From IMG/VR virus record IMGVR_UViG_3300035698_004995, positions 1-20,262 of that record: 20,262 bases of DNA. One strand, 5' to 3'. How positions within the stretch are numbered: the first letter of the stretch is position 1; every line of letters starts with the position of its first letter. A model generated the notes under the pieces. It searched no databases. It was not told where the DNA came from and saw only the letters and a program-made list of their open reading frames with translations. Source of the stretch: a virus. Shown piece by piece: positions 5,067 to 20,063 of the stretch. A program made the translations under genes and the position numbers.

Positions 5067-5085
5067 GCACCAAATTTGATACAAT
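5057..5085 (+). promoter_or_regulatory. Strong sigma70-type promoter
   Basis: TTGACA (5057-5062), a 17-base spacer, then TACAAT (5080-5085): a perfect -35 and a near-perfect -10 at optimal spacing. Transcription is expected to start at about 5091-5093, the first base of the stem at 5092-5100. It lies in the only sizeable gene-free stretch of the window. Confidence 0.75.
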
Positions 5086-5091
5086 GTAAAA

Positions 5092-5577: not shown

Positions 5578-5752
5578 GCACTACAACACAGAACTAGAAG
5601 ACATGTTCCTAGACCATCTAGGGGACGGGGCATTAACCGATGAGGACGTATTGGTGGGAGCAGATAAGTTCTATGAGAATATTATGCAGTTCGCTGATGT
5701 GTTAAGGGATGATGATGCTACACTTAATTTTGTAAATGGAGAGGAGTTGTAA
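5567..5752 (+). CDS. Hypothetical acidic protein (61 aa)
   Basis: This acidic, soluble protein has no known motif (LEDMFLDHLGDGALTDEDVLVGADKFYENI). The site gggagggtag precedes ATG 5567, which overlaps the previous mini-ORF. It ends one base before the ATG of the ATPase gene, suggesting coupling. Function unknown. Confidence 0.6.
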   Translation: MSNEHYNTELEDMFLDHLGDGALTDEDVLVGADKFYENIMQFADVLRDDDATLNFVNGEEL

Positions 5753-5753
5753 T

Positions 5754-6458: not shown

Positions 6459-6476
6459 AAAGAGGAGGAACATTTT

Positions 6477-7295
6477 ATGCAAGACGGAGACGTAGTAGCA
6501 AGTGGAGAGATAGCAAACAACACAACTAACATGCACGATAACAGTGAATTTAAACCAGAAGAGAATACTTTGAGTGATGCAGATAAAAGAATGATGAATG
6601 ATAATAAGGAAGTAGCACCATCAATCGATGCAATGGCACAACAGGCAGCAGCTTTCTTTGATGGGGAAGTAAAGGAACCGATGGCAGAAGCACAAGGAGC
6701 AGACTTTGATAAGTTTGCAGACGTATTGGTGGCATTCAAACCAACTCCTATTAAAGAGAATGGACCATCGTTCCTAAAAGGGTTCTTTAAGGCTCGCATT
6801 GATAGTATTCGTCGCTATACAGGAACCGACAAGAACGGTAATCCATACGACATGTATAGTTTTGCCGTCGAGACTACTGGCCTTGGGAATAAGAAATCAA
6901 AAGGTTATGCTGGTAAAAAGTTATCTGAAACATTCTCGTTGATTGACGGAACCTATAATGATTCGGCAGCTAATTTCCAGAAACTATTAACGTTCTTGTT
7001 CTATGCTGGCATTGAAATCAACTTTGCCAACTGGGATGAGTTTGACGGTAAATGCGGTGAGCTAGAAGGCAAACCATGTTTCGTTGATGTTAAACCTAAA
7101 ATGAAATGGTTGGTAGAAGGACCTGAAGGGTCAAAAACCTTTACGAAAGTGTTAGGTGACGATGGCAAACAACTGTTCGTTGAACGGGACGGTTACATTG
7201 AACATAAATGGGAAATCGTTCCTAACATTCCGAACATGCTGAAGGACGAGGAAGAAACTGCTGGACCTAGTTTGACAGCCGTTCCAGTATTCTAG
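6477..7295 (+). CDS. Probable ssDNA-binding / recombination partner protein (DUF669-like)
   Basis: This 272-residue protein has a long acidic, low-complexity N-terminus (about residues 1-80). A beta-rich core follows: FFKARIDSIRRYTGTD, then ANFQKLLTFLFYAGIEINF and GELEGKPCFVDVKPKMKW. Proteins with this core layout, often called DUF669, commonly sit next to Sak4-like ATPases and are thought to bind single-stranded DNA. The family assignment rests on pattern and position, not on a clear motif. The site agaggagg precedes the ATG by 8 bases. A terminator follows 18 bases downstream. Confidence 0.5.
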   Translation: MQDGDVVASGEIANNTTNMHDNSEFKPEENTLSDADKRMMNDNKEVAPSIDAMAQQAAAFFDGEVKEPMAEAQGADFDKFADVLVAFKPTPIKENGPSFLKGFFKARIDSIRRYTGTDKNGNPYDMYSFAVETTGLGNKKSKGYAGKKLSETFSLIDGTYNDSAANFQKLLTFLFYAGIEINFANWDEFDGKCGELEGKPCFVDVKPKMKWLVEGPEGSKTFTKVLGDDGKQLFVERDGYIEHKWEIVPNIPNMLKDEEETAGPSLTAVPVF

Positions 7296-7313
7296 ATAAC
7301 ACTAATTAATAAT

Positions 7314-7350
7314 GCCCCTCTTGTGACACTAGTTGCTTGAGGGGCTCTTT
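7314..7350 (+). terminator. Intrinsic terminator-like hairpin
   Basis: GCCCCTC (7314-7320) pairs perfectly with GAGGGGC (7339-7345) over an 18-base loop, followed by tcttt. The T-tract is short, so it may be partial. It separates the ATPase/ssDNA-binding pair from the ERCC4 nuclease gene. Confidence 0.65.
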
Positions 7351-7365
7351 AGATGGGAAGGACGT

Positions 7366-7950
7366 ATGGCATACCGAGATACAATAACCATAAAGGTAGA
7401 TAGCCGTGAACAGAAACCATTGAGCTTCGGACGTTACAAAGATGTATTCAGTGTTCGTGAAGGTCTCAAACAGGGCGATTACGGAGCCGTTCTGCACACT
7501 AAGTTTGGTGATTTAAATAGCCGACTAGTATTCGACAGGAAATCTAAAGGCGATCTCTGGGGAACTTTTGCTGGCAACTATGATAGATTCAAACGAGAGT
7601 TCAATAGAAGCCTTGTAGCGCATGAGAAATTATGTCTCATCACGGAAGATGGGGTATCTGACATTTGCACTAAAGGGTTTTTCTTTAAAGGCAGACGGCA
7701 TGAGACATCAGGTGCTACATTGCAGAAGAAATTAGAGACGTTACGTGAGAAGTATGGATTGGAAGTAGTGTATTGTGCGGGAAGGACTGACATGCAACGG
7801 TATCTTGTAGGACGGTTCATGGCACAGTGTAGATTGGTTAATGCATTGCTTAAAGAGTTTAATAAGACAGATAACTGGGAGCTACTTAATACTATTAATA
7901 GAAAGGTGTTCTTATGGGATACAAGAGCAGAGGCAATTTCAAAACAATGA
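7366..7950 (+). CDS. ERCC4-type (XPF-family) nuclease
   Basis: The protein is 194 residues from ATG 7366, chosen for the site gggaagga; an in-frame TTG at 7333 lies in the terminator loop. Motifs: VDSREQ (residues 11-16), LKQGDYG (35-40), FDRKSKGD (56-63) and FAGNYDRFKREF. They match the ERCC4 nuclease domain, whose catalytic core is GDx(n)ERKxxxD; the Glu of ERK is Asp here. These nucleases cut branched or flap DNA and often belong to phage recombination modules, which suits the neighbours. A helix-hairpin-helix domain is not evident, so it is the nuclease domain with a C-terminal extension. The end overlaps the next gene by 37 bases. Confidence 0.75.
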   Translation: MAYRDTITIKVDSREQKPLSFGRYKDVFSVREGLKQGDYGAVLHTKFGDLNSRLVFDRKSKGDLWGTFAGNYDRFKREFNRSLVAHEKLCLITEDGVSDICTKGFFFKGRRHETSGATLQKKLETLREKYGLEVVYCAGRTDMQRYLVGRFMAQCRLVNALLKEFNKTDNWELLNTINRKVFLWDTRAEAISKQ

Positions 7951-8096
7951 GCGTCGAGGAATACAAGAAGATTAGCTGGGGTAAGAAAGAGAAAGATGTG
8001 TTCTGTAGTAAATGTGGTGGTCTAATATGTAATGGACTAGCTGGCGATGAGACATTTAGAGTCTGTGAGGATTGTGGACGAATGGATTGTGAGTAA
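7914..8096 (+). CDS. Small zinc-ribbon protein (60 aa)
   Basis: The motifs FCSKCGG and VCEDCGRMDC give two CxxC knuckles about 23 residues apart, a compact zinc ribbon. The site aaaggtg supports ATG 7914; an alternative ATG at 7947 overlaps the nuclease stop as ATGA. The N-terminus is basic. It may bind nucleic acid; function unknown. Confidence 0.6.
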   Translation: MGYKSRGNFKTMSVEEYKKISWGKKEKDVFCSKCGGLICNGLAGDETFRVCEDCGRMDCE

Positions 8097-8133
8097 CAGG
8101 AATCAGTAGATAACAGGGAAGGAGGAGGTGTAT

Positions 8134-8586
8134 ATGAACAATGTAATATTTTCAAGTAGAAGTGACAACTGGTCTACACCAAAGAATTTATACGACATGC
8201 TTAATGAAGAGTTTGACTTTAACTTTGATCCTTGCCCACTTAGAAATGATTATGTTCTTGACGGACTAACAATTGAGTGGGGTAAGAGAACATTTGTTAA
8301 TCCACCATACAGCGACATTAAGAAATGGGCGAAGAAATGTTACGAAGAGTCATTGAAGAGAAAAACTATAGTTATGTTAATCCCCAGCAGAACTGACACT
8401 AAGTATTGGCATGACCATATCATGCTTGCAGACGAGATAAGATTTATTAAGGGTCGGTTAAAGTTTGGTGATGCAACCAACAGCGCCCCATTCCCTTCTG
8501 CTGTAGTTATCTTTGATGGTGACCACGTTTACAGAAAGTACGGAGAAGTTGTTTGTGGTGTCAGTTGCGTGGGGATGGTGCTGTAA
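8134..8586 (+). CDS. Phage N6-adenine DNA methyltransferase (Dam-like)
   Basis: The protein is 150 residues. It starts with SDNWSTPKNLYDMLNEEF, then FNFDPCPL (residues 30-36) and FVNPPYS (54-60), the catalytic NPPY. This is the compact phage Dam family (phage N-6-adenine-methyltransferase), which transfers methyl from S-adenosylmethionine to adenine, usually GATC. No restriction enzyme is nearby, so it is probably an orphan methylase protecting phage DNA from host nucleases. ATG 8134 is 5 bases after ggaggagg; a GTG two codons earlier would sit inside that site. This binding site is complementary over 11 bases to the RNA at 5126-5136. It ends TAATG with the next gene. Confidence 0.8.
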   Translation: MNNVIFSSRSDNWSTPKNLYDMLNEEFDFNFDPCPLRNDYVLDGLTIEWGKRTFVNPPYSDIKKWAKKCYEESLKRKTIVMLIPSRTDTKYWHDHIMLADEIRFIKGRLKFGDATNSAPFPSAVVIFDGDHVYRKYGEVVCGVSCVGMVL

Positions 8587-9599
8587 TGGGACAAGCAATA
8601 GTATATACCATAAAACAGATGTTAGACCTAGAGTTTAAGTATGACTGGCTAGTAAGTAAATTCCTAATGGTCGGTGACGTTTGGCTCATAAAGGCTCAGA
8701 AGAAAGTTGGGAAAGGAGTGTTGTCTCAGCAGCTTGCGTTCGCTCTCAGCTGTGGAGAGAGGTTCTTGGGCTGTTTCGATACTAAAGGACCATGTAAGGT
8801 GGCGTATCTGTCAGGGGAAGGTTACATTGGTAACTGGCAGAGTCGCATACGAAACATGAAGAAAATGTGGAAGTGCGATGAGGATAACATAACCTTCATT
8901 GATTGCATTGGTTTCAAGCTCCATGGAGATAATGACGCTAAACAGATGCTTGAGATATTAGTAAAGCAGAATGTAAATTACGACGTGCTGATATTCGATC
9001 CGTTGTTTCGGCTCTGTGCTAACGGGGACATCAACAGTAACGCCGACATGGCTCAATTCTTCGGGAACGTTGAGATGATGGTTAAGCATTTTAGTGCGTC
9101 TGCTATCGTAGTTCATCATGACTCTGAGAAAGTGTATCGTGATAATAGAGGCCAGAAACACTCAAGTGCGTCGGTTAAGAACGCAATGGGAGCGTCAGCA
9201 ATTACATGGGCAGCTAGTCACTATGCAACACTAACAACCTATAAGGACAAGAACAAGAAGAAGATTCATAGACTGCAGATGGGTGATTGCCGGTCTTCTG
9301 ACTATGTTGATGACATTGAGTTCTGCATGATAACGCCAGAATCTGATGAATTAGGACGTCTTGGTTACACGACAGATGTAGAAGATACTAACGTCCATTA
9401 TCACGCTATCAAAGAGTACCTATATAAGAATAGAAAGGTTAGCGACCATAAGATATATGATACTATCGGTGTTGCGTCAGCTACCTTCTATCGGAACATT
9501 AAGAAATTACAGGACCATGGGTTTGTTACTAAAGATACTGATGCTCATGGGAAACATTATTATGTTTGGAATGATGAAATGGAGGTAGAGAATGGGTAG
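8586..9599 (+). CDS. RepA-like AAA_25 ATPase / replicative helicase with C-terminal winged helix
   Basis: The protein is 337 residues from ATG 8586, which overlaps the methylase stop as TAATG. Walker A is AQKKVGKG (37-44), the K-x-GKG form of RepA/RSF1010-like hexameric helicases. Walker B-like is VLIFDPLFRL (134-143), followed by SAIVVHHDSEKVYRDNRG with the conserved HH. The last 80 residues (YHAIKEYLYKNRKVSDHKIYDTIGVASATFYRNIKKLQDHGFV) look like a winged-helix DNA-binding domain. The probable role is helicase or loader in phage replication. No primase motif is visible. Confidence 0.75.
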   Translation: MGQAIVYTIKQMLDLEFKYDWLVSKFLMVGDVWLIKAQKKVGKGVLSQQLAFALSCGERFLGCFDTKGPCKVAYLSGEGYIGNWQSRIRNMKKMWKCDEDNITFIDCIGFKLHGDNDAKQMLEILVKQNVNYDVLIFDPLFRLCANGDINSNADMAQFFGNVEMMVKHFSASAIVVHHDSEKVYRDNRGQKHSSASVKNAMGASAITWAASHYATLTTYKDKNKKKIHRLQMGDCRSSDYVDDIEFCMITPESDELGRLGYTTDVEDTNVHYHAIKEYLYKNRKVSDHKIYDTIGVASATFYRNIKKLQDHGFVTKDTDAHGKHYYVWNDEMEVENG

Positions 9600-9933
9600 G
9601 GAGATTAAGTTTAGATGTTGGGACATTAGTAAAGGAACTATGTTTAAACCATACAAGGAGCTTTGTTTTGTTGATGGTCGACTTATAGGTGACGGGGGAA
9701 CTATTAGACATGATGCCGACAGCATCATGCAATTCACTGGCTTATATGACAGAAATGGTGTTGAGATATATGAGGGAGATATTATAAATGTTGGCTACAA
9801 CTATATAGGCATGAGGGTTGTTGAGTTTATAAGTGGAAGGTTTTCGGCAGAGGGATATAACCTTAAACGGTGTGAGGTTATCGGTAATATTCACCAGAAC
9901 CCAGAGTTACTAATGGAGGCAACACATGGCTGA
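9592..9933 (+). CDS. YopX-family protein
   Basis: This 113-residue protein has the YopX layout. It starts GREIKFRCWDISKGTM, has a central MQFTGLYDRNGVEIYEGDII (conserved Q-x-TGLxDxxGxxIYEGDI) and ends EVIGNIHQNPELL. YopX-type proteins are frequent in phages; their role is unknown, with proposals in host takeover or phage regulation. It overlaps the preceding gene by 8 bases (site atggaggt) and the next by 8. Confidence 0.85.
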   Translation: MGREIKFRCWDISKGTMFKPYKELCFVDGRLIGDGGTIRHDADSIMQFTGLYDRNGVEIYEGDIINVGYNYIGMRVVEFISGRFSAEGYNLKRCEVIGNIHQNPELLMEATHG

Positions 9934-10132
9934 ACTATTCTCATTAAAAGCAGAAGTAACTCAGGAAACTGACACATGGCAGGATAGCTCTGACGGACAC
10001 CAGCAATTAGACATTGAATATGTTGATGGCTATTACATTATTAAAACTGAACGATGGGCGTTCGAGACTGTAATGGAATTAACCGAAACGTTAGATAAAC
10101 TCCGGAAAGCAGTAGGTGTATTCAATGGCTGA
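9926..10132 (+). CDS. Hypothetical protein (68 aa)
   Basis: Not recognised. The acidic N-terminal half is followed by YVDGYYIIKTERWAFETVMELTETLDKLRKAVG, which suggests a beta hairpin and an amphipathic helix. The ATG follows atggaggcaac and overlaps the YopX gene; the end overlaps the next start. Confidence 0.6.
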   Translation: MAELFSLKAEVTQETDTWQDSSDGHQQLDIEYVDGYYIIKTERWAFETVMELTETLDKLRKAVGVFNG

Positions 10133-10358
10133 ACATTTCTGTGTTGAGTGCAAGAAACTAGTAGAGATAGTTCATACTGGCGAGATCAAGGAAGAGTTCA
10201 AATGTATATGCTCTAAATGTTACAAAGAACTGTTCGGCAGTGGTCCGGTAGAAGCTATCGGATCAATGTGTTTTACGGCCCTGAACTTACATGCTGATGA
10301 CGTTAAGATACTGAATGATATTCTTAAAGGGAAGGAGCCAACTGATGAGCAAGACTAA
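10125..10358 (+). CDS. Small zinc-binding protein (77 aa)
   Basis: The motifs FCVECKK and CICSKCYKEL give two CxxC pairs, a probable zinc ribbon, followed by a helical tail ending LNDILKGKEPTDEQD. ATG 10125 is preferred over the upstream in-frame GTG 10116, because aggtg lies at the right distance. It overlaps the flanking genes by 8 and 14 bases. Function unknown. Confidence 0.6.
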   Translation: MAEHFCVECKKLVEIVHTGEIKEEFKCICSKCYKELFGSGPVEAIGSMCFTALNLHADDVKILNDILKGKEPTDEQD

Positions 10359-11025
10359 AACGGTTCTAGTTATAGGCGATACTCATTTACCATTTGAACA
10401 TGACGGCTACCTAGCATTCTGTAAACGAATAGAGAAAGCCTATAAATGTAGTGAAGTTATCCATATAGGTGACCTAGTAGACAACAACGCAATCAGCTAC
10501 CATGAGAACGACCCTGATGGCCTCAGCCCAGCTGACGAGATGAAAGAGACTGACGATAAACTGAAGCTCTGGTTCAAGGCTTTCCCGAAAGTTAAGCTAT
10601 GCAGGGGCAATCACGATATTCTAGTTGACCGTAAAGGACGAACTGCTGGCTTACCAACTCGCTGTTTTAAGGACTTCAGGGACATCTGGAAACTGCCGGA
10701 CACATGGCAAGATGATTTCAGTTTCGTTATAGGGGATGTGCTATATAAGCATAGCGGTGCAGGTGGAAAGTTCGGTCATGTGCAGACTGCCAATAATGAG
10801 CGCATGAACACTGTTATTGGGCATTTACACTCGGTAGCTGGCGTTGAATATACTGCTAGTGAGCGAGACATCATCTTCGGTATGTGCGTTGGTTGCGGAA
10901 TTGACCGTAATAAGTATGCGTTCGCTTATGGTAAAGGGTTTGCAAGAAAACCAATATTAAGCTGCGGAGTTGTTAATTACTCACCTAAAGGGACAAGCGC
11001 CATAGTTGTTCCTATGAAAATGTAA
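10345..11025 (+). CDS. Calcineurin-like metallophosphoesterase
   Basis: The protein is 226 residues from ATG 10345 (site gggaaggagc). The metal-binding motifs appear in order: GDTH (11-14), GDLVDN (42-47), GNHD (88-91) and GHLH (159-162). These define the two-metal calcineurin-like phosphoesterase fold. Candidate substrates are nucleic-acid ends, cyclic nucleotides or phosphoproteins; the sequence does not decide. Some phage homologues are annotated as DNA-repair exonuclease-like or protein phosphatases. The gene lies in the early block beside unknown small genes. Confidence 0.85.
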   Translation: MSKTKTVLVIGDTHLPFEHDGYLAFCKRIEKAYKCSEVIHIGDLVDNNAISYHENDPDGLSPADEMKETDDKLKLWFKAFPKVKLCRGNHDILVDRKGRTAGLPTRCFKDFRDIWKLPDTWQDDFSFVIGDVLYKHSGAGGKFGHVQTANNERMNTVIGHLHSVAGVEYTASERDIIFGMCVGCGIDRNKYAFAYGKGFARKPILSCGVVNYSPKGTSAIVVPMKM

Positions 11026-11036
11026 AGGAGCTAACC

Positions 11037-11213
11037 ATGGGAATGATTAAAGGCCAACGTGAATGGAACAAATTCGAGCGTGGTGAGCCACTCAGCAGAA
11101 CAGAATGTATTAAGGCTCATTGCTACGATTGCAACGGCCGAGAAGACAGTAGAATAGACTGTAAAGGGTTTAACTGCCCATTGTATCGTTATCAACCATA
11201 TCGTTCAAAATAG
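11037..11213 (+). CDS. Small Cys-rich protein (58 aa)
   Basis: ATG 11037 follows aaaggagct. The protein is basic at both ends and has ECIKAHCYDCNG, then IDCKGFNCPLYRYQPYR: five or six cysteines in a C-x4-C-x2-C...C-x4-CPLY layout common in phage zinc-knuckle proteins. It lies 11 bases after the phosphoesterase gene. Function unknown. Confidence 0.65.
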   Translation: MGMIKGQREWNKFERGEPLSRTECIKAHCYDCNGREDSRIDCKGFNCPLYRYQPYRSK

Positions 11214-11262
11214 AGGCTTAAACGGCACTTAATCGCCGTCTACAGCACAAGAGAGGAGAGTC

Positions 11263-11784
11263 ATGTCAGACGCAATACACTGGGATAAAGAGAAAATAGA
11301 CAAGTTGCATAAGATAATAAACTATACGCTCAGGAAGCATGGAGTCAATGATTGCCGAACTTTCTGCAAGGCTGACATTAGACAGGACATAGTGCATAAC
11401 GCGTTAGTAACTCCTGACTTCTTTGATAGCTATATATTTATGAGGGTCAAGAGAAGAATGTATGATGCAATCAGAAAATATACTGGCAGGGGTAAGGTTA
11501 CAAATATGAACATTTTCTCTCTAAGCGAGAATAATTATGATTTAGAAATGCCTGTTTATTCCAAGACTAGACATCGCGCTGACGTTCTTATGATGAAACA
11601 TGTGGTTAATAGCTCTAGGTTAAATGATGTTAAAAAGAAAATGTTTGTAGAATACTACGAGAAAGACAGGACGCTGAAGGATATTGGGTTTACTATAGGG
11701 CTGACTGAATCTAGGGTTTGTCAAATAGTAAGAGAGCTTAACGAGTTTATAAGACGCAAATACAAAAACATGAAGGAGGTGTAA
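11263..11784 (+). CDS. Small sigma-70-family factor (FliA-like)
   Basis: This 173-residue protein has a C-terminal sigma region 4-like helix-turn-helix: KKMFVEYYEKDRTLKDIGF, then GLTESRVCQIVRELNEFIRRK. The central FMRVKRRMYDAIRKYTG resembles the end of region 2/region 3 of FliA/WhiG sigma factors (R-x-RGAxxDxLR). Full FliA is about 240 residues, so region 2 is shortened. It could direct host RNA polymerase to phage promoters, fitting its place near the end of the early block and the oppositely oriented late genes. A DNA-binding regulator derived from a sigma factor is the main alternative. The site gagaggagagtc precedes the ATG. Confidence 0.6.
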   Translation: MSDAIHWDKEKIDKLHKIINYTLRKHGVNDCRTFCKADIRQDIVHNALVTPDFFDSYIFMRVKRRMYDAIRKYTGRGKVTNMNIFSLSENNYDLEMPVYSKTRHRADVLMMKHVVNSSRLNDVKKKMFVEYYEKDRTLKDIGFTIGLTESRVCQIVRELNEFIRRKYKNMKEV

Positions 11785-11785
11785 C

Positions 11786-12052
11786 ATGGCAATAAATACT
11801 TCGGGAGACATAGTGAACCATCCTAAACACTACACAGCTCACCCATCTGGCGTGGAATGCATCCAGATAACTGAACATCTCAGCTTCCTAAGAGGCAATG
11901 CTGTCAAATATCTATGGAGAGCAGGAGAGAAAGACGATGCAATACAGGACCTAGAGAAAGCAGTCTGGTATATCAATAAGGAGATTGCCAAGCTAAACAC
12001 CGCAAAGTTTGCAGGGTATGAGGATAAAGGGTGGGCATCAGATGTGGTCTGA
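11786..12052 (+). CDS. DUF3310 family protein
   Basis: This 88-residue protein contains VNHPKHYTAHPSGVECIQI, then SFLRGNAVKYLWRAGEKDDAIQDLEKAVWYINKEI: the conserved NHPxHY...ECI and FxxGNAxKYxWRxxxK signatures of DUF3310. The fold is sometimes linked to nucleotide kinase-like or MazG-like proteins, but the activity is not established. The site aaggaggtg gives strong translation. It overlaps the next small membrane gene by 11 bases. Confidence 0.85.
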   Translation: MAINTSGDIVNHPKHYTAHPSGVECIQITEHLSFLRGNAVKYLWRAGEKDDAIQDLEKAVWYINKEIAKLNTAKFAGYEDKGWASDVV

Positions 12053-12176
12053 GGTTAAGTGTGGGTTCTGGATGACACTATTCGGAATCTTCATTGCTCT
12101 CTACACTATCTATAAGTTTGTGCTGTGGATAGTTACAATGATTACTGTAGGTTTATACAATGTGTTTAAGTCATAG
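12042..12176 (+). CDS. Small membrane protein (44 aa)
   Basis: ATG 12042 lies within the end of the DUF3310 gene. The product is mostly hydrophobic: FWMTLFGIFIALYTIYKFVLW, then IVTMITVGLYNVF, one long or two short membrane helices. The overlap and hydrophobic pattern support it, but no clear ribosome binding site is seen. Holin-like or superinfection roles are possible but unsupported. Confidence 0.5.
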   Translation: MWSEVKCGFWMTLFGIFIALYTIYKFVLWIVTMITVGLYNVFKS

Positions 12177-12201
12177 GCATACTATGAGAAAAGGAGCTAT
12201 A

Positions 12202-12918
12202 ATGAATTTGATACATGGAGATTGTTTAGAAGAGATGCAGAATATACCTGATGGTTCTGTTGATATGGTTATGACAGATCCGCCTTATGGGACTACGGCC
12301 TGTAAATGGGACAGCATCATACCGCTTGAGCCGATGTGGGAGCAATTGAAACGCGTGATTAAACCGAACGGCGCTATTGTGATGACTTGTGCTCAACCGT
12401 TCACGAGCGCATTGGTAATGAGTAATCCAAAGCAGTACAAGCACCACTGGGTATGGCAAAAGGAAAAGGGGACAGGCTTCCAAGTTGCTAAGTATAGGCC
12501 GATGATGAAGACTGAGGACGTAATTTGTTTCTGTGGAGGTCGCCTTGCGTACAATCCTCAGATGGTCAAAAGAGATAAACCAATCACATACAGTTACCCA
12601 ACTAAGCCAAGTAGAAGCAACCCGTTAGCACACTATAAAAAGAAGAAAGTCACAGCAACGCACAAGTATCCAGAGAATATTATAAAGATAAAAACATCAG
12701 GGAGGGGCAAGCTCCACCCAACCCAAAAGCCAGTAGCACTCATGGAGTATCTGATTAAAACATACACCAACGAAGGTGAAACGGTCCTTGACTTCACGAT
12801 GGGCAGTGGCACAACAGGAGTCGCGTGTAAGAACCTAGGAAGAGGCTTCATTGGTATAGAGCTAGACGAAACATATTATAACATTGCAGTTGATAGGATA
12901 AATGGAGCTGTGCAATAA
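12202..12918 (+). CDS. DNA N4/N6 methyltransferase (beta-class)
   Basis: The protein is 238 residues from ATG 12202 (site aaaaggagc); an in-frame ATG 14 codons earlier has no site. The catalytic DPPY (26-29) precedes the target-recognition region. HPTQKP (172-177) and the SAM-binding DFTMGSGTTG (197-206) follow, ending with GIELDETYYNIA. This motif order is that of beta-class N6-adenine/N4-cytosine methylases (N6_N4_Mtase). Specificity cannot be read. With the Dam-like enzyme it is the second orphan methylase here. It is the last rightward gene. Confidence 0.85.
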   Translation: MNLIHGDCLEEMQNIPDGSVDMVMTDPPYGTTACKWDSIIPLEPMWEQLKRVIKPNGAIVMTCAQPFTSALVMSNPKQYKHHWVWQKEKGTGFQVAKYRPMMKTEDVICFCGGRLAYNPQMVKRDKPITYSYPTKPSRSNPLAHYKKKKVTATHKYPENIIKIKTSGRGKLHPTQKPVALMEYLIKTYTNEGETVLDFTMGSGTTGVACKNLGRGFIGIELDETYYNIAVDRINGAVQ

Positions 12919-12927: not shown

Positions 12928-12952
12928 TTGGTTGGGGCTCATCACCCCTTCC
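12928..12952. terminator. Weak bidirectional terminator candidate between convergent blocks
   Basis: In the 36 bases between the convergent genes, ggttgggg and ccccttcc face each other across ctcatca. Four G-C pairs form next to the loop, then two T-T mismatches, then two G-C pairs. No strong T-run follows on either strand. Termination is expected here from gene orientation, but the hairpin is weak. Confidence 0.3.
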
Positions 12953-12954
12953 AG

Positions 12955-13104
12955 CTACTCTTCCTCTTCCTCATCATCCTCATCTTCAGGTTCATCGCAC
13001 ACAACATACTCATATTCCTCATCAGGGTCATATTCACCTTTAAATTGATCATAATAGATACACTTTGATTCAGTGAGCTCCTTACCAAAGATGTATCTCG
13101 GCAT
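12955..13104 (-). CDS. Small protein with strongly acidic tail (49 aa)
   Basis: Reading leftward from 13104, the protein begins MPRYIFGKELTESKC and ends in a run of Asp/Glu (DEPEDEDDEEEEE). Such a tail could mimic DNA or bind basic proteins, but this is inference. The start overlaps the end of the 31-residue gene upstream by 23 bases; the ribosome binding site (cggaac) is weak. Last leftward gene. Confidence 0.5.
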   Translation of the reverse strand: MPRYIFGKELTESKCIYYDQFKGEYDPDEEYEYVVCDEPEDEDDEEEEE

Positions 13105-13177
13105 GGTCGTTCCGTCTTATTAGTTCGTTAATCAGTATCTCTGTGCTTAGTGCTTTTATTAAACTTACTGTTCCCAT
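13082..13177 (-). CDS. Hypothetical 31-residue protein
   Basis: A strong aaggaggt lies 6 bases before the ATG at 13177 (another ATG two codons earlier directly abuts the site). The product is MGTVSLIKALSTEILINELI followed by RRNDHAEIHLW, an amphipathic helix with a polar end. Function unknown. Confidence 0.5.
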   Translation of the reverse strand: MGTVSLIKALSTEILINELIRRNDHAEIHLW

Positions 13178-13204
13178 GACCATACCTCCTTGTTGATAGC
13201 TAGA

Positions 13205-13240
13205 TTTTGTCAGAAATAGTTACCTGTTTTTATGACAAAA
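13205..13240. repeat. 8-bp inverted repeat at the end of the DUF1353 gene
   Basis: TTTTGTCA (13205-13212) and TGACAAAA (13233-13240) are exact reverse complements around 20 bases that include the DUF1353 stop codon. No T-run follows on either side, so an RNA-processing or weak termination role is only a guess. Confidence 0.4.
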
Positions 13241-13637
13241 GAGCTTCGTATATGATGCGTTTTTTGCCACGTTTAAGCGCTAACCGTCCACCTAATCTAA
13301 CGCCCCTGTAATAAGTAGCCGCATGGACTCTCCAGCATCCACCACGCAGTAACAGGTCCCTAAAACATAGGTCAGCATTCTTGCGGTACTTCATACTCAA
13401 CTTTGAGGTCTTCATCAATTGATAGAGAATATCATGGACGAGAGACGCATTACGGCTATTCTTATGGTCAGGAGCTCCACCACTACAGCCATCCCATGCG
13501 TAGCCACGTCTTATCCACAGCTTATTGCCTCTCAGTTTAACCCAATAGGTATCAACAGCAGGGAAGCTCTCAGCAAGCACATAGTTCTCATCCTGCACGG
13601 TCCTATATTTATAACGTTTTATCTCTTCATAGCGCAT
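13230..13637 (-). CDS. DUF1353 family protein
   Basis: This 135-residue protein has the DUF1353 signature IRRGYAWDGCSGGAPDHKNSR, then LVHDILYQLM. The C-terminal half carries RVHAATYYRGVRLGG and is basic. DUF1353 proteins are frequent in phage late/lysis regions; their activity is not established. The site gggag lies 7 bases before the ATG. It closely follows the interrupted 78-residue frame. Confidence 0.75.
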   Translation of the reverse strand: MRYEEIKRYKYRTVQDENYVLAESFPAVDTYWVKLRGNKLWIRRGYAWDGCSGGAPDHKNSRNASLVHDILYQLMKTSKLSMKYRKNADLCFRDLLLRGGCWRVHAATYYRGVRLGGRLALKRGKKRIIYEALLS

Positions 13638-13654
13638 TATTAACTCCCATTTAC

Positions 13655-13890
13655 TTACGATTTATACCACTCTAACGGTAATAACTCGTAACATTTCACG
13701 ATATGCCAACGAATAAATGGCAATGATGCCAGTTTTACTAACGTAGCGGTAATAGTAGCTATTTTTTAGCACTGTTAGCAAGCCCCTCAGCAGTATTTTC
13801 CACTACAATCTCGGCCGTCTTCTCTAAAACTTCCTTTGACACAATGAACTTATATATAAATGCTAACAGGTTATCAACCATTGGTTTCAT
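13655..13890 (-). pseudogene. Small helical protein gene interrupted by a frameshift at A6 (78 aa if restored)
   Basis: Leftward from ATG 13890 (site gaggagataac), the frame reads MKPMVDNLLAFIYKFIVSK through ANSAKK and stops at a TAG (13759-13761), 43 residues. The stop directly follows a run of six A on the coding strand. One extra A would continue the frame as KKIATITATLVKLASLPFIRW to YELLPLEWYKS, stopping at 13655, and closing the gap to the DUF1353 gene. The extension has a hydrophobic stretch, so the restored protein could be a small membrane-associated protein. The cause may be a sequencing error, true mutation, or -1 frameshifting on the A-run. Confidence 0.55.
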
Positions 13891-13891
13891 G

Positions 13892-14059
13892 TTATCTCCT
13901 CACATATTCAAGACCGTTAATTGTTATTATTGATTGCTCGTCCGCTTCGCACAGCAGGCCGATTGTCGCTGAAGCTAGGTCAGTATAGGCACAACCGCTT
14001 AAAGTGCCGGAAACGACCAGTAAAGCCAGCAGAACCGCGTAAATACGTGTCTTTTTCAT
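13892..14059 (-). CDS. Small lipoprotein (55 aa)
   Basis: The N-terminus is MKKTRIYAVLLALLVVSGT followed by LSGC, a clear lipobox with Cys23 as the lipidated residue after a signal peptidase II site. The mature part is only about 33 residues and is acidic. Its place among lysis-zone genes suggests an outer-membrane spanin (Rz1-like) role, but it is not proline-rich, so this stays a guess. The ATG overlaps the previous stop (TAATG). Confidence 0.65.
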   Translation of the reverse strand: MKKTRIYAVLLALLVVSGTLSGCAYTDLASATIGLLCEADEQSIITINGLEYVRR

Positions 14060-14145
14060 TATCGACCGCGCCGAATTGGTTTCGGATCGCCTTTTCCGCC
14101 TTGTCTTGGTTTATTTCCGCAATCACCTTTTCTTGGAATGCTCAT
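14059..14145 (-). CDS. Basic Gly/Pro-rich peptide (28 aa)
   Basis: The site atggagga precedes ATG 14145 and the frame reads MSIPRKGDCGNKPRQGGKG followed by DPKPIRRGR. It is very basic and probably unstructured. The stop is shared with the lipoprotein start as TAATG, which supports translation. Function unknown. Confidence 0.5.
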   Translation of the reverse strand: MSIPRKGDCGNKPRQGGKGDPKPIRRGR

Positions 14146-14412: not shown

Positions 14413-14622
14413 TTACTCTCCTGCAAACGCTAGTTTAGTTACATATGGTAAGAGCTTTTCACCAATCGCAATAAGCAATAAAAATATAATCAGATAGTTA
14501 GCGACAACGAGCTTGTCAAACTTTTTAAACAGGACACCAATTGACTTTTTAATGTGCTTAATGTCAGATTTCGTTGTTGCTACGTCTTTTATCATTTCTT
14601 CGTGCGATTCACATTTCGTCAT
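14413..14622 (-). CDS. XhlA-like coiled-coil membrane protein (possible holin accessory)
   Basis: The protein is 69 residues from ATG 14622, which has ggagg in front; an in-frame TTG four codons earlier overlaps that site. The first 40 residues (CESHEEMIKDVATTKSDIKHIKKSIGVLFKKFDKL) form a heptad-like coiled coil. A single membrane helix, YLIIFLLLIAIGEKLL, and a short tail follow. Haemolysin XhlA and similar phage lysis proteins have this layout. It sits in the probable lysis zone, but no endolysin was recognised nearby. Confidence 0.5.
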   Translation of the reverse strand: MTKCESHEEMIKDVATTKSDIKHIKKSIGVLFKKFDKLVVANYLIIFLLLIAIGEKLLPYVTKLAFAGE

Positions 14623-14638: not shown

Positions 14639-15049
14639 TTATCGAGCTTTAATTACAGTGTTTTCTATTTGATAAGAGCCTTGTTTAACACAATCGTAAA
14701 CCGTTGCTTCTGGTGTTGCCGCTACCACATCGACTAGCTCAACCGTGGCTCGTCCGTAAGACTTTATTTTCATTCTTACCTTACCGTCGCCTACCATATT
14801 ACCATTCATGCCGTATATTATCATCTTGCGTGATGGAGCGTAGAACTCAACAGACTTGTCACCAGTCCCTAGATACTCAGCGAAATAAGGTTTGCCGCCT
14901 TTTATAGTTGCCTGATAAGCCGCTACGTTTGGTTCGTCAGTAAACGATATTTCGTATTCGTCGTGACTTACTCTCTCTAGAAGTAAGTCGGCGCTTAGTG
15001 GGAAGCAGAGTAATAAGAAAAAGGAAAATAACGCTATCGGTTTTCTCAT
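14639..15049 (-). CDS. Exported beta-rich hypothetical protein (136 aa)
   Basis: ATG 15049 (site aaaggac) starts a classic signal peptide, MRKPIALFSFFLLLCFPLSA, with likely cleavage before DLLLER. The mature part has alternating strand-like stretches (YEISFTDEPNVAAYQATIKGG, KMIIYGMNGNMVGDGKVRMKI) and two features suggesting small beta domains. An upstream in-frame ATG at 15085 has no site and lies in the previous gene. Function unknown; it is the last of six exported-type genes in a row. Confidence 0.65.
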   Translation of the reverse strand: MRKPIALFSFFLLLCFPLSADLLLERVSHDEYEISFTDEPNVAAYQATIKGGKPYFAEYLGTGDKSVEFYAPSRKMIIYGMNGNMVGDGKVRMKIKSYGRATVELVDVVAATPEATVYDCVKQGSYQIENTVIKAR

Positions 15050-15065
15050 TGTTCTGTCCTTTCGG

Positions 15066-16328
15066 TTATCCTTGATATGCGCCAAGGGTTACTGTTGGAA
15101 ATAATGTTTGTATGTATTCGTCTGCGCCTATGTCCCAAGGGTCAGAACGTGTGTCATTATCAATGTCATTAGTGAAGTCAGAAGACAAGTCAGTCCCTGT
15201 GCCTATCAAATCTGAACCTGTTGCCAAATGGAAATCTTCTATACCGCTTGATGTTTCAGTAAACTGCGTGTCGGCAACATTTATAAGGCTATTAGTTCCA
15301 GTTGCAGACGAATCGCCAGAAGCGTTGTAGTCGTGAGTTGTCCCACCAAAAACATAATACGTTTCCAGGTCATTTTCAGAAAACAAATTCATCACTACGT
15401 TGTTGTAAACCTCACCGCTACTTGTGTTCGATATTCCTATGGCGTCTCCACCGTTTAGGTCATTATTGTATATCCCGTAAATAGTATTATTATGTATGAA
15501 TGTATTTCTTGTAGTTCCTATCGCGGTAAAGTTTCTTCCAGAGAACACTGAACCAAGCGGAACGCCACAATCATATACTATGTTATTTCTAATTATCATT
15601 CCCTGATGAAAGCCGTAGTTCTGTATAGCTAAGTCACCACCAGGAGCCCATATTCCAGAGACGATACAGTTTTCTATAATACCGCCTGAACCAGTAGTTC
15701 CGCTTCTATTGTCTGAGTTCGATACTATCTTTCTTCCATCCATAATGAAGCCATCAACAATAATATGCTGATCAGAGATAACGAGGTTATCAGTAAATGT
15801 AAATTTGCCATTCTCGTCTACCCCTTCATGCCTGTATATATCATCAGGGTCACACCATAGCTTGACATAATTATCCGTGTCACAAGTGTAACCGTCCATC
15901 GTCCCTGCGCCTGCAGTAGAGCCACTAGAATTTTTAAACGTGACAAGCATCCACGAACCGGCACCTACGTCTGTAATAGTCACGCTGTTGCCAACAGAAA
16001 CTTGCATAATCTCTCCGCTTGAGAACGTTCCAGTTATTGTATCAAGTAGAATCTGGTCTGAGGTAGCATGAACGATTCGGCCAGTTGCAGAACTAGTCTG
16101 GCCCGTAACAGTCGAACCATCACCAACAGCGCCAGTGATTCCACTGTGTCCAAACACTTTAGTCGTTGTCGCTGTGAGGTCTGTCTGACACGCCGTCTCC
16201 CAATTAGAGAATGACGAGTAGTCATAGCCGGCCCCACTATCTACATCAACAATAACTTCAAACTCAGTAGACGCGGAAACGCTTGTTGTAAAGATTAAGC
16301 ATAGAATTGTTAAGAGTATTTTTTTCAT
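15066..16328 (-). CDS. Exported right-handed beta-helix protein (tailspike/adhesin-like)
   Basis: This 420-residue protein starts with a signal peptide, MKKILLTILCLIFTTSVSA. After a beta domain it has repeated short strands rich in Asn/Gly/Ile: DQHIIVDGFIMDGRKIV, IIENCIVSGIW, MIIRNNIVYDCG, TFIHNNTIYGIYNN, GEVYNNVVMN. These are the coils of a parallel beta-helix (pectate-lyase-like). The end, DLIGTGTDL...DIDNDTRSDPWDIGADEY, matches the common closing motif of secreted beta-helix proteins. Phage beta-helix proteins are usually tailspikes that bind or cut polysaccharide, but those normally lack signal peptides. It follows the preceding stop directly. Confidence 0.75.
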   Translation of the reverse strand: MKKILLTILCLIFTTSVSASTEFEVIVDVDSGAGYDYSSFSNWETACQTDLTATTTKVFGHSGITGAVGDGSTVTGQTSSATGRIVHATSDQILLDTITGTFSSGEIMQVSVGNSVTITDVGAGSWMLVTFKNSSGSTAGAGTMDGYTCDTDNYVKLWCDPDDIYRHEGVDENGKFTFTDNLVISDQHIIVDGFIMDGRKIVSNSDNRSGTTGSGGIIENCIVSGIWAPGGDLAIQNYGFHQGMIIRNNIVYDCGVPLGSVFSGRNFTAIGTTRNTFIHNNTIYGIYNNDLNGGDAIGISNTSSGEVYNNVVMNLFSENDLETYYVFGGTTHDYNASGDSSATGTNSLINVADTQFTETSSGIEDFHLATGSDLIGTGTDLSSDFTNDIDNDTRSDPWDIGADEYIQTLFPTVTLGAYQG

Positions 16329-16669
16329 CTACATGTCCTTTTCTGAAACAATTTCAAAGTTGCTCACTTCTTGTGTTTGATAAGAAGTAGACCCTGAAGC
16401 GTTTCGTGAATAAGCTACGCTAGAAACTACGTTTCTCGGCATGTTCAATACCGACACGCTATTTTTAGTAACAGTTATATCACTTCCTGCGTCTACTTCT
16501 GTGAATGTCGTAAAGTCTAAGTAAGGGGGCTAGGAGCATCAAACGAAACCCCAGCCTCTTGAGCCGACACGCCACTTTTCTCAAACGTCAAGAACGCACT
16601 CTGCTCCCCCATAACTGAAGGGCAGAGCATGAATAATAACATTAATGTTGCTATCAGTTTTCTAATCAT
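16329..16669 (-). pseudogene. Exported small protein gene interrupted by a frameshift at C5 (113 aa if restored)
   Basis: ATG 16669 overlaps the stop of the 626-residue gene (ATGA). The frame gives a signal peptide MIRKLIATLMLLFMLCPSVMG and then stops at TAG (16517-16519) after 50 residues, just past CCCCC on the coding strand. One more C restores a frame that runs through PPYLDFTTFTEVDAGSD, SVSVLNMPRNVVSSVAYSR and QTQEVSNFEIVSEKDM to a TAG at 16329-16331. That TAG abuts the ATG of the beta-helix gene. The tight fit at both ends argues for one original gene of about 113 residues. Either a base was lost in sequencing or the gene is broken. Confidence 0.6.
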
Positions 16670-18546
16670 ACGGCTTTCCTCGCTTCCAAATACCAAGCCT
16701 CACCGTCAACGAAAATCAACAGGCTAGTCGTAAGGCTCGCATCAAGAACAGTGCTACTTGAAGTGTCGCCACTCATCGTTAGATTGCCTTGCAGGTAAAG
16801 GTCGTCTATCTGTATATACCCTTCGCCAACCGTAAGGTTATTCACAAGCGACAAATCACTACCTGCCGCAACGTCCGTTGATTGACTTGCGATATAAAAC
16901 TCATCACTATTACGGTAAGCAATAGTATCACCTGCAACAATAGCGTCATCTGCTGTCATTGTGTTGGTTATCACAACGTCATTGCCTACGCTTAATGTAT
17001 TGCCTAATGAAAGGTCTGTTTGGATTGATACGTCGCCTGTTTCACCGTCTAAAACAAAAGCCGTAGGATCTGTATCAGACTCAATGATGAAATCAATGTC
17101 CAGAGAATTGTTATTTATTATAATTGAATCCTCTGCCCCTTCTATAATAGTAATATAATCATTCCCACCAGCCTTTATTTCTATTCTGTCTGTCAAAAAT
17201 TGTAGATATGTATTCGTATCACCGTTATGAAACAAGTAATCTCCGAAATACATACTAGAGGTAGTGGAAAATACCCCGCTGGTCGTTACATCTCGACCTT
17301 CATTAAGCGGAGTAACAGTATCGACTCCATTGTCTGACCATACAGAAGAGCCACTACCCCCGTCAGGAGTTGCCCAAGAACCATCACCTCGATAATAAGT
17401 CGTAGCACTCGCCGTTCCAGTCGCGTCAATATTAGCAACATCAACAACGCCGTCTGCAATAGTTAATGCTGTCGCACCAGTTACTTCTCCTGTATGGGTT
17501 TTGTTTGATATCTTCGCAGAGTTATCTACAATTTCATCATGAAAATAAGCTGTTAAAAGTCCTGCCTCAGTTCCAGAGGCTTCAACTAACGTGGCATTTG
17601 TGCCATCAGAAGAATTGACAGCCATCGTTGTTCCAGTCACAGTCCCTAAACTTAGGTTTGTACTTACATTAGAAGTCTTTGATGTATTAGTTACTATTTC
17701 ATCGAACTTAGCTTTAGTAAGTAATCCCGCTCTTGAAGTTGACGCTGAATTTAAAGTAGCGTCTGTTCCATCAGAAGAAGTAACAAGAACAGTAGTTTCT
17801 GTTGATGTTCCCTCAGCTAAATTAGTTGATACATTAGTATCTTTTGCATTATTTGTTTCTATATTACCGACAAGGGCAGAAGTCATATATCCATTTCTTG
17901 CATTTGTCGCAGATTGATTACTTATTTCCTGTGTGTCTAGGCTCAGCCCTCCAGCAGTAGCAGAAGTATTTAAAGTTATTGCATCGTGTCTTGCTAAAGT
18001 ATTACTTGCAACATCTGTTTGATTTCCTACTTCTGTATCAAAATCAGAAATATTAGAAGCGTCCAAACCTGTTACTGCTGAAGCGTCACCATTAAGTATT
18101 CTAGCATTAACTACATCAACAGACAAATTTTCTGACATAGTAATGTTTCCAATATTATCAAAGTCAACTTCACTGGTGAAAGACAAGCCGTCCAAGTAAG
18201 CGTGTCGAGCCGTTAAGTCCGAACCAATCGCTAAGCTTTTAGCCGTATCATCCCAAAACAGTTCAGAAGTTTCGGTGTACTGCCATTCTCCAAGAGTATC
18301 GTTCCAAAAAGCCATTTGACCGTCTGCTGTACCATTTATGATATTACTTGCTGGAGCGGCGCTACCTCCACCAGACGTAACAACAGTCCCATCAGCTTCC
18401 ACTTGAATCTTAGCAGGGACACCGCCAGCAGTTTCCCCATACCACATGTATTTGCGGATAGTTGGGTCTGTAGTCTCGTAGTCACTAGCAATCGCAACGC
18501 CAGCAAGTAACAGTAACAGTAATGCTGTGTATAGTATTCGTTTCAT
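16666..18546 (-). CDS. Large exported fibre-like protein with DPTIRK module (626 aa)
   Basis: The signal peptide is MKRILYTALLLLLLAGVAIA. Next is the shared module DPTIRKYMWYGETAGG...VEADGT (residues 27-54), then low-complexity Ser/Thr/Asn-rich beta structure. About residues 218-327 hold two 55-residue repeats (NVSTNL..GT...SSDGT.ATL..AS) and a partial third. Then comes HTGEVTGATALTI and YYRGDGSWATP, wording typical of phage tail-fibre shafts. The C-terminus lacks an obvious chaperone domain. The site aaggagc lies before the ATG. Fibre-like composition suggests receptor binding; the signal peptide suggests export of the monomer or a membrane anchor. Confidence 0.75.
   Translation of the reverse strand: MKRILYTALLLLLLAGVAIASDYETTDPTIRKYMWYGETAGGVPAKIQVEADGTVVTSGGGSAAPASNIINGTADGQMAFWNDTLGEWQYTETSELFWDDTAKSLAIGSDLTARHAYLDGLSFTSEVDFDNIGNITMSENLSVDVVNARILNGDASAVTGLDASNISDFDTEVGNQTDVASNTLARHDAITLNTSATAGGLSLDTQEISNQSATNARNGYMTSALVGNIETNNAKDTNVSTNLAEGTSTETTVLVTSSDGTDATLNSASTSRAGLLTKAKFDEIVTNTSKTSNVSTNLSLGTVTGTTMAVNSSDGTNATLVEASGTEAGLLTAYFHDEIVDNSAKISNKTHTGEVTGATALTIADGVVDVANIDATGTASATTYYRGDGSWATPDGGSGSSVWSDNGVDTVTPLNEGRDVTTSGVFSTTSSMYFGDYLFHNGDTNTYLQFLTDRIEIKAGGNDYITIIEGAEDSIIINNNSLDIDFIIESDTDPTAFVLDGETGDVSIQTDLSLGNTLSVGNDVVITNTMTADDAIVAGDTIAYRNSDEFYIASQSTDVAAGSDLSLVNNLTVGEGYIQIDDLYLQGNLTMSGDTSSSTVLDASLTTSLLIFVDGEAWYLEARKAV
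18368..18508 (-). repeat. 141-bp duplicated module, copy 1
   Basis: These 141 bases match 19670-19810 with three differences (18376/19678, and single changes near 18477 and 18492). They encode the end of the signal peptide plus the DPTIRK module in the 626-residue gene. Confidence 0.85.
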
Positions 18547-18555
18547 GGTTGCTCC

Positions 18556-19851
18556 TTATATTATTTCTTGAATAAATGCTTCCGTGTCTACTGCGAAAAT
18601 ACTCGTGCAATTACTATTAGCAGACACCCTCAAATAGATGTCAATGTTTGTGGTTGGTGTCACCAGAAACCCCAAGCTGGTATTACTGCCCTGAGCAGAG
18701 GTTCCAGATACTGCATATACTTTGTTAGTCGATGAATCTGTTACCTGTTCGCTGTCAGTATCGTTCCACCACTGGCAAGTAAGTGTTCCTGACGCGCTAA
18801 AATTTGCCCTCATGTCACAGAATCCACGATAAGTTCGACCTGCTAACAATGTAGTCTTGAATGTAGTGTCGTTGTGCGCTAGAGTCCCAGAAGATTTTAC
18901 AAAATTTAATGAGTTAGTTGCTGAAACGGAAGTGTCATCTGCCGTCATTTGCAGATAAATATACCCTTGCAAATCACTAACCAACAATTTGTTGTTAACA
19001 CTCAAATCCCCATCAATCAAAGTATTTCCCTGAATCGTAACCAACCCACCAGTAGTCAGTGGTCCATCTATAGTCAACGCACCAGCACTCTCATCAAAAG
19101 ATAAAGCCCCATTAGCAAGAGTAGTTCCACCTACAACGAAATCATCTGTAATACTAGTCACATACGTTACTGTGCCACCAACTGTAATAGCACCAGAAGC
19201 ATATTCAGCACCATCAATATAAATCTTATCGTTAGTTCCAATAGTCAAATCATGGTCAGTCGCTCCACTATCAGGCATAATAATAACGCCCTCAGTTCCA
19301 GACCCACCAACTGTAATAGCACCCGTTGCAGTTATCGCAGCAAACGTTACACTATCAGATGATTCAACGTCCTGATTCATTGCATATAGTTCATTCACAC
19401 CTTGTCCCGTATTAACTGTAGCGAATGTAACAGCACTTGCTTCCAACACATTCTGGTCCATGTCGAATAGTTCGTTCGCTCCCTGACCGGTGTTAACAGT
19501 TGCGAACACTACCGCATCACTAGACTCAACATCTTGGTTCATAGTGTACAATTCATTAGCCCCCTGTCCAGTGTTTATAGTTATAGCTTCCATTAAGCCA
19601 GTTACAGTAACGTCACCATCTAAATAAGCTCCATCTGCCGTCTCGGTAAACACTGAAGTGCCACCAGAACCACCAGAAGTAACAACAGTCCCATCAGCTT
19701 CCACTTGAATCTTAGCAGGGACACCGCCAGCAGTTTCCCCATACCACATGTATTTGCGGATAGTTGGGTCTGTAGTCTTGTAGTCACTAGCAACCGCAAC
19801 GCCAGCAAGTGCAATGAACGCTACTAGAGCAAGTAATAATAATTTCTTCAT
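18556..19851 (-). CDS. Exported fibre-like protein with DPTIRK module and NTGQG repeats (431 aa)
   Basis: ATG 19851 is used because aaaggaga lies 8-9 bases before it; an in-frame ATG nine codons upstream precedes that site. The signal peptide is MKKLLLLALVAFIALAGVAVA, then the module DPTIRKYMWYGETAGG...EADGT. Residues 93-173 are three tandem 27-residue repeats starting NTGQGxNELxxMxQxV. Gly-rich beta structure with IxVGG turns follows. The last ~130 residues (LLAGRTYRGFCDMRANFSAS...) resemble a compact jelly-roll trimer domain of the C1q/TNF type. The architecture fits a trimeric fibre with a globular tip. Confidence 0.75.
   Translation of the reverse strand: MKKLLLLALVAFIALAGVAVASDYKTTDPTIRKYMWYGETAGGVPAKIQVEADGTVVTSGGSGGTSVFTETADGAYLDGDVTVTGLMEAITINTGQGANELYTMNQDVESSDAVVFATVNTGQGANELFDMDQNVLEASAVTFATVNTGQGVNELYAMNQDVESSDSVTFAAITATGAITVGGSGTEGVIIMPDSGATDHDLTIGTNDKIYIDGAEYASGAITVGGTVTYVTSITDDFVVGGTTLANGALSFDESAGALTIDGPLTTGGLVTIQGNTLIDGDLSVNNKLLVSDLQGYIYLQMTADDTSVSATNSLNFVKSSGTLAHNDTTFKTTLLAGRTYRGFCDMRANFSASGTLTCQWWNDTDSEQVTDSSTNKVYAVSGTSAQGSNTSLGFLVTPTTNIDIYLRVSANSNCTSIFAVDTEAFIQEII
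19333..19575 (-). repeat. Three tandem 81-bp coding repeats (NTGQG)
   Basis: Within the 431-residue gene an 81-bp unit occurs three times, each encoding 27 residues from NTGQG to FAT/FAA. Copies one and three are closest to each other (ESSD versus LEAS in the middle copy). Likely structural repeats of a fibre shaft. Confidence 0.8.
19670..19810 (-). repeat. 141-bp duplicated module, copy 2
   Basis: Partner of 18368-18508. It encodes the same module in the 431-residue gene and implies recent duplication or gene conversion. Confidence 0.85.
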
Positions 19852-19877
19852 GTCATGTTCTCCTTTAGCATTATTCA

Positions 19878-20063
19878 TTAACCAATGTTTAGCGTGCCGT
19901 CAGTATCTACAAGCATCTTTACTGGATTGCCAGCTGCTGTTTCTCCGTATGCCATCCCTTTACGTATCGTTGGGTCTCCAGTAAGAGCGTCTGGACTAAC
20001 TGCATATGCTATCCCTACTATAAGAAGGACAGCCCCTAGTGTTATAAGTATTACTTTTCTCAT
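19878..20063 (-). CDS. 61-aa exported protein consisting of signal peptide plus DPTIRK module
   Basis: The site taggaggat precedes ATG 20063. The product is a signal or anchor sequence MRKVILITLGAVLLIVGIAY, a short linker, and the module DPTIRKGMAYGETAAGNP...DTDGT, ending three residues later. It is therefore the minimal form of the module at the start of the two large fibre-like proteins downstream. It could be a free subunit that pairs with them, or a fibre gene truncated after its N-terminal domain; the clean stop and gene spacing favour a real small gene. Confidence 0.7.
   Translation of the reverse strand: MRKVILITLGAVLLIVGIAYAVSPDALTGDPTIRKGMAYGETAAGNPVKMLVDTDGTLNIG

Follow-up and report, generated by a model that had tools for sequence, protein, structure and literature searches.

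Tails and fibers of tailed phages are generally held to assemble in the cytoplasm. In the filamentous phage M13, the virion proteins pIII and pVIII are known to go through Sec/YidC prior to assembly. Here, we report on the IMG/VR record IMGVR_UViG_3300035698_004995, a linear virus fragment of 20,262 bases analyzed in its entirety (the window), in which six adjacent minus-strand genes (positions 14639 to 20063; five frames intact and one broken) encode products starting with Sec/signal peptidase I (SPase I)-type signal peptides (SPs). Together with their relatives, these genes suggest that some phages may send pieces of their tails across a host membrane before the particle is completed. In the short tail of SU10 (Kuravirus), which contains adaptor gp11, nozzle gp17, and long and short fibers, the adaptor joins the portal to the nozzle and holds the long fibers (PMC9509320). 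A full-text search of a literature collection with few subscription journals did not turn up any description of Sec signals for fibers, adaptors, or nozzles of tailed phages, consistent with the proposal of an initial annotation of the window that this system is undescribed.

The six N-termini display a positive n-region, an uncharged hydrophobic core of 8 to 16 residues, and small residues at positions −3 and −1, as expected for Sec/SPase I substrates. A crude, home-made scorer based on n-region charge, the uncharged hydrophobic core, and small −3/−1 residues gave them values of 9.6 to 11.3, all above the working cut-off of 8.5, bearing out the initial annotation, which had described six consecutive products with Sec-type SPs. 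The SPs were restricted to the gene run, since none of the other 33 genes of the window scored as an SP with this scorer, and the clustering of seven SP positives in the run was associated with a hypergeometric p of about 2e-6. Each of the six SP genes is preceded by a purine-rich ribosome-binding site (RBS) of its own.

Read along the minus strand, the run starts with a predicted exported product of 61 residues (19878..20063; SP at residues 1 to 21, ending in MRKVILITLGAVLLIVGIAYA↓VSP; score, 11.3; RBS, CTAGGAGG), which contains nothing beyond the SP and a module, DPTIRKxMxYGETAxGxPxKxxVxxDGT, located directly behind the SP and common to this product and the next two. These are predicted exported fiber-like proteins of 431 residues (18556..19851; SP ending in AVA↓SDY; score, 11.3) and 626 residues (16666..18546; AIA↓SDY; score, 10.7). 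The former, as counted from the ATG at 19851 (the longest open reading frame [ORF] has 440 codons), consists of the SP, the common module, (V/L)NTGQGANELYxMxQ(N/D)V repeats, and a C-terminal region resembling by eye a jelly-roll tip; the latter has weak matches to long viral fiber proteins. The fourth gene (16329..16669) had been described as encoding an SP protein of ~113 residues. The SP is present (VMG↓EQS; score, 9.6), but the frame is broken: the 50-residue SP frame (16517 to 16669) ends at a stop codon, and an open frame in another register continues to 16329. The break may result from a sequencing error, a pseudogene, or slippage. It is located at a C5 run, and the other-frame sequence (YLDFTTFTEVDAGSDITVT..) looks, by eye, like the start of LamG-type phage proteins. 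The last two genes of the run encode a predicted exported protein of 420 residues (15066..16328; VSA↓STE; score, 10.8), which matches phrog_358 (1.7e-8; labeled unknown function) and is probably beta-helical or appendage-like, and a small predicted exported protein of 136 residues (14639..15049; LSA↓DLL; score, 9.7), which has no family match in Pfam, PHROG, or PDB. A cohesin-like fold, guessed by eye for the latter, was unsupported by Pfam or PDB. AlphaFold2 models obtained from single sequences without alignment had mean predicted local distance difference test (pLDDT) values of 45 and 31 for the 136- and 420-residue proteins, respectively, and were not used for a fold search. None of the six SP proteins matched a curated tail-fiber family (no Pfam match above the cut-off and no tail PHROG), and tblastn searches of 50,697 phage records did not find any of the three largest.

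The scorer was also run on control proteins of known location. Six of the eight exported controls from E. coli scored 9.7 to 10.9, and the remaining two, PhoA and MalE, scored 7.1 to 7.3, indicating that the cut-off of 8.5 misses some true SPs. Four of the five nonexported controls scored 0, and the membrane protein LacY scored 8.0. A test independent of the −3/−1 rule of the scorer showed that the motif [AVST]xA follows 52% of 85 N-terminal hydrophobic cores; at random positions in these proteins the figure was 24%, and behind internal hydrophobic stretches it was 31%. The n-regions contained 1.7 Lys/Arg versus 0.09 Asp/Glu per 5 residues. Chance N-terminal hydrophobicity was considered as a source of the SP calls and rejected. 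Export of the six products is well supported by sequence, translocation and cleavage being predicted.

The genes for the 431- and 626-residue proteins are informative on how the SPs evolve. The N-termini of their products are 83% identical over 60 residues. At the DNA level, identity reaches 96% for codons 22 to 62 and drops to 67% for codons 1 to 21, with 9 amino acid replacements in the 20 SP codons compared, and both sequences are still good SPs. Paralogues at locus L137 display a like pattern, the signal-like character being kept despite divergence of the sequence. Since the character is maintained and the sequence is free to vary, this segment behaves as a signal peptide rather than as a specific docking peptide. 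The final codons of the SP belong to the conserved tract, placing a recombination or conversion boundary inside the SP. Pattern and alignment scans of viral_contigs, GenBank phages, and the 16-genome phylum of the metagenome-assembled genome (MAG) containing L168 revealed no relative of the module located behind the SPs of the window, and a scan with the 420-residue protein found nothing.

Fiber-type genes encoding SPs were not limited to the window. Scanning IMG/VR with the 431-residue protein identified, via the VNTGQGANELY repeat, 36 loci with fiber-like proteins, and a degenerate repeat pattern provided about 80 further loci among the matches listed. In these contigs, which were picked by the fiber repeat and annotated with a greedy gene caller, SPs were present on 14/78 repeat-bearing genes versus 45/865 other genes (visible starts; Fisher p, 1.4e-4); several obvious SPs of repeat-bearing genes scored just below the cut-off. 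Structural operons from a diverse set of uncultured tailed viruses repeatedly contain SP-bearing fiber, lectin, and decoration-like genes; LamG lectins and YadA head repeats occur among the SP proteins, one of which has a weak match to BclA_C. SP genes adjoin portal or capsid genes at loci L168 and L180 to L182. At L180 (G018), a 401-residue polytopic membrane protein (12936 to 14141) is encoded between SP structural genes; it resembles by eye O-antigen polymerases or ligases and is a possible surface-conversion gene.

The initial annotation had suggested searching phage genomes for homologous neighborhoods, and these were found as SP runs in structural operons, next to portal, capsid, or tail genes, both in IMG/VR and in GenBank. 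The closest layout is that of a podovirus contig, IMGVR_UViG_3300017598_000430 (G002, the contig of locus L038), to which the window is linked by replication ATPases that are 34% identical: the AAA_25 ATPase of the window (8553..9599, plus strand) and the one encoded beside the SP run of G002. The portal, capsid, and tail tubular A and B proteins of G002, identified by position and by eye, are devoid of SPs, as is a 252-residue epsilon15-type tailspike adaptor (phrog_1640, 9e-41) located directly before the SP run. This run consists of six scored SP genes plus one subthreshold gene, with a LamG lectin among the products. G002 also encodes a small membrane protein of the lysis type and has divergent early genes. 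The gene for a 247-residue probable lipoprotein (lipobox IIGC; L166, 6101 to 6844) is flanked in the same contig by the capsid-side genes and tail tubular A, within a podovirus head module that is plain in other respects. In GenBank record MW202898, an adaptor without an SP is followed by a 906-residue SP fiber with a weak BclA_C match. A decoration-like family exists in both states, with an SP in G002 and G001 (phrog_5335) and without one in Methylophilales phage MEP301.

SPs were also found on connector proteins in two contigs. A complete genome, G001 (IMGVR_UViG_3300030616_000005; 44,784 bases), has a 127-bp terminal direct repeat. Its only two SU10-type head-tail adaptors (PF24175, 4e-25 and 2e-24) both carry SPs, as does a probable nozzle, the nozzle label here and below being based on position after the adaptor and resemblance rather than on a family match. 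The match of the adaptors to the PF24175 profile starts at residue 21, immediately past the SP. SPs are present on most proteins encoded from the gene following the capsid through the probable nozzle; the capsid, portal, terminase, and post-nozzle genes lack them. The second contig, G025:C95, is 4.4 kb long and was binned into a MAG; such binning provides weak evidence of the host of a phage contig. It encodes an SP-bearing adaptor (PF24175, 2e-17) and an SP-bearing homologue of the G001 nozzle (BLASTP, 3e-25). The adaptors and nozzles of these two independent contigs are only 27% and 26% identical, respectively. SP-less adaptors from three other phages begin exactly at the mature N-terminus. 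The combination of SPs on SU10-type adaptors, a probable nozzle, and LamG and YadA-head fiber proteins at loci L034 (1835 to 13861) and L179 (G025:C95, 566 to 4367), in two distantly related phage contigs, is arguably more striking than the window. Two further features of these contigs were noted. Between the adaptor and nozzle genes of G025:C95, an HNH endonuclease ORF (L179, 2803 to 3276) starts with MKWIITVLLLCAPWEGGG.., giving the impression of a homing gene inserted immediately behind the beginning of a further SP gene. In G001, at least three similar paralogues are made up, after MKRxLKxxKxxCYYYKDGxKIIG, of repeats like GDASGIWGDVSRIWGCVTG (L165, 9740 to 12579). Scans with the G001 adaptors, the G002 adaptor, and the replication ATPase returned no contigs beyond those already found, and one scan of genome contigs yielded two MAG loci.

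The SU10 adaptor carries the long fibers and the nozzle (PMC9509320), indicating that the SP-bearing adaptors and probable nozzle are virion parts. An SP is therefore unlikely to mark a nonvirion protein in this group. The initial annotation had offered a choice between exported fiber- or adhesin-like proteins and N-terminal anchors. The export signals are supported and the gene content fits, but this choice omits a third option raised by the adaptors and probable nozzle of the relatives, namely, that SP proteins are virion parts. We tentatively favor this option, at somewhat less than an even chance: the six genes may form an appendage cassette of a tailed phage (fibers, adhesin- or lectin-like proteins, and decoration proteins), the Sec-exported products of which join the particle outside the cytoplasm. 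The SP would carry the nascent appendage protein across the inner membrane as an ordinary Sec substrate and would be removed by SPase I. The mature protein would then fold and trimerize outside the cytoplasm, and the module common to the 61-, 431-, and 626-residue proteins may act as a shared docking piece. Heads would be assembled and filled with DNA in the cytoplasm, meeting the appendages only once holin and lysin open the cell, so that mature appendages would be added at or after lysis. Extension of this scheme to a two-compartment virion, in which heads are made and packed in the cytoplasm and the fibers, or in the extreme case of G001 and G025:C95 the whole post-packaging tail (adaptor, nozzle, and fibers), pass through Sec and meet the head only outside the cytoplasm, the window being a fiber-only version, is rather unlikely.

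Several observations weigh against the assembly of exported appendages onto the particle. The SP calls were made with a home-made scorer, not SignalP. Cysteine is about twice as frequent in the SP-set proteins as in core late proteins (0.88 versus 0.41 per 100 residues), with no obvious pairs. SPs are rare on core tail proteins, with none on the tail tubular proteins of G002, on the adaptors of G011, G013, and L168, or on the adaptors of four genomes of the Patescibacteria phylum. Profile scans of 10 minus-strand and 10 plus-strand proteins of the window detected no SU10 adaptor (PF24175), the fragment ending upstream of the run. Since this 20-kb fragment lacks adaptor, nozzle, and portal genes, virion membership of the six proteins is proposed by analogy, and their presence in the particle of this uncultured phage is predicted. 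Finally, as known from P22, DNA normally leaks from heads that have no adaptor and nozzle, making late extracytoplasmic addition of core parts hard to picture. This difficulty, the main one, concerns G001 and G025:C95 rather than the window, where only fiber-type proteins are seen.

For the window considered alone, a real rival is that the six products are secreted nonvirion factors, i.e., fiber-, lectin-, or enzyme-like proteins acting on or around the infected cell in superinfection masking, in keeping progeny off debris, or in matrix loosening. Exported proteins do occur in tail regions, as PMC12309495 places Lom of phage lambda, an SP-bearing outer membrane protein, between the tail spike and fiber genes. 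The possibly beta-helical 420-residue product would also suit this explanation, as would a 4629-residue protein with a hydrophobic N-terminus from a Kaiserbacteria MAG (L169, 2270 to 16159), which carries phage fiber repeats. Gene flow between phage fibers and cell surface adhesins is possible at this locus. However, secretion as such leaves the SPs on the adaptors and probable nozzles of G001 and G025:C95 unexplained, and in several contigs, such as MW202898, the cassette stands in place of ordinary fibers instead of being an addition to them. We regard secreted factors as improbable overall.

Less likely still, the hydrophobic N-termini may never be removed and may retain the proteins in either the virion or the membrane of the host. 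The cores of the 61-, 431-, 626-, and 136-residue proteins span 17 to 20 residues by the Kadane measure, which is long for an SP. Uncleaved anchors are difficult to reconcile with the enrichment of [AVST]xA past the core, with n-regions rich in Lys/Arg and nearly free of Asp/Glu, and with an SP that diverged next to a conserved module; we consider this explanation doubtful. Misassigned, host-derived, or misassembled DNA, encoding cellular surface proteins outside any phage structural operon, could account for the broken gene and for fiber repeats in a cellular MAG contig (L169), but it is very improbable given that a DUF1353/phrog_1158 gene belongs to this strand run, that the opposite strand carries phage replication genes, that the layout is matched in G002, a podovirus contig encoding portal, capsid, and tail tubular proteins, and that the phenomenon recurs in a complete phage genome (G001). 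A purely host origin of the DNA was rejected.

The six SP genes belong to a late run on the minus strand (20262 down to 13230), which is assigned to a phage because it contains the DUF1353 gene (13230..13637; PF07087, 2.9e-5; phrog_1158, 5e-19, labeled "tail assembly chaperone"). Next to the SP genes, a 69-residue protein (14413..14622, minus strand) has one transmembrane helix near its C-terminus and no family match. It may be a lysis-type small membrane protein, by analogy with the one encoded at the matching place in L038 (12975 to 13217). Further along the same strand, a 55-residue probable lipoprotein (13892..14059), without a clear RBS, has the lipobox LSGC, which conforms to the pattern [LVI][AST][GA]C at the end of the SP; the initial annotation had placed this lipoprotein four genes on from the SP genes, and it is the third. 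The plus strand (92 to 12918) carries early and replication genes, including AAA_24, AAA_25, ERCC4 nuclease, PAPS reductase, PRPP synthetase-like, sigma-70 region 4, and metallophosphatase genes. A row of genes encoding a PAPS reductase, a nucleoside 2-deoxyribosyltransferase-like protein, and a PRPP synthetase-like protein (909 to 3071) may participate in nucleotide or NAD-related metabolism.

If exported appendages are confirmed, either part of a tailed virion is made outside the cytoplasm or phages routinely display fiber proteins on their hosts. Either outcome would alter the annotation of fiber genes in metagenomes, in which those with an SP may be classified as surface proteins of the host, as well as views of host range and superinfection. 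Mature N-terminal peptides in viral metaproteomes would provide a direct test.

Phage M13 differs from the phages considered here in being a membrane-extruded, nonlytic single-stranded DNA phage without a tail. Secreted and signal-arrest-release (SAR) endolysins, including Lys44 of fOg44, are late proteins of tailed phages that use Sec (PMC6116005). They are lysis enzymes, whereas Pfam and PHROG scans found no lytic family (secreted or SAR endolysin) in the run of the window, and this identity was rejected for the SP products. Lom of phage lambda is likewise a Sec-exported phage protein encoded amid tail genes, but it is an outer membrane barrel expressed in lysogens, whereas the SP proteins described here are fibers, lectins, and connectors with structural homologues. 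The hypervariable targets of diversity-generating retroelements (DGRs) noted with SPs are cellular, not viral. The likeness to SU10 resides in the PF24175 adaptors of G001 and G025:C95, in the conserved adaptor-then-nozzle order, and in internal or ejection-type proteins without SPs. It differs in that the text of PMC9509320 never mentions a signal peptide, that the beginning of the Pfam profile coincides with the end of the SP, and that adaptors, probable nozzle, and fibers carry SPs in the relatives described here, the window holding the fiber part only. Finally, the N-terminal adaptor of the epsilon15, phiV10, and HTVC010P tailspikes matches the 252-residue adaptor of G002. In those phages, the adaptor domain starts the fiber or spike protein itself, without an SP, whereas in G002 and MW202898 the adaptor is a short protein and SP-bearing fibers follow.

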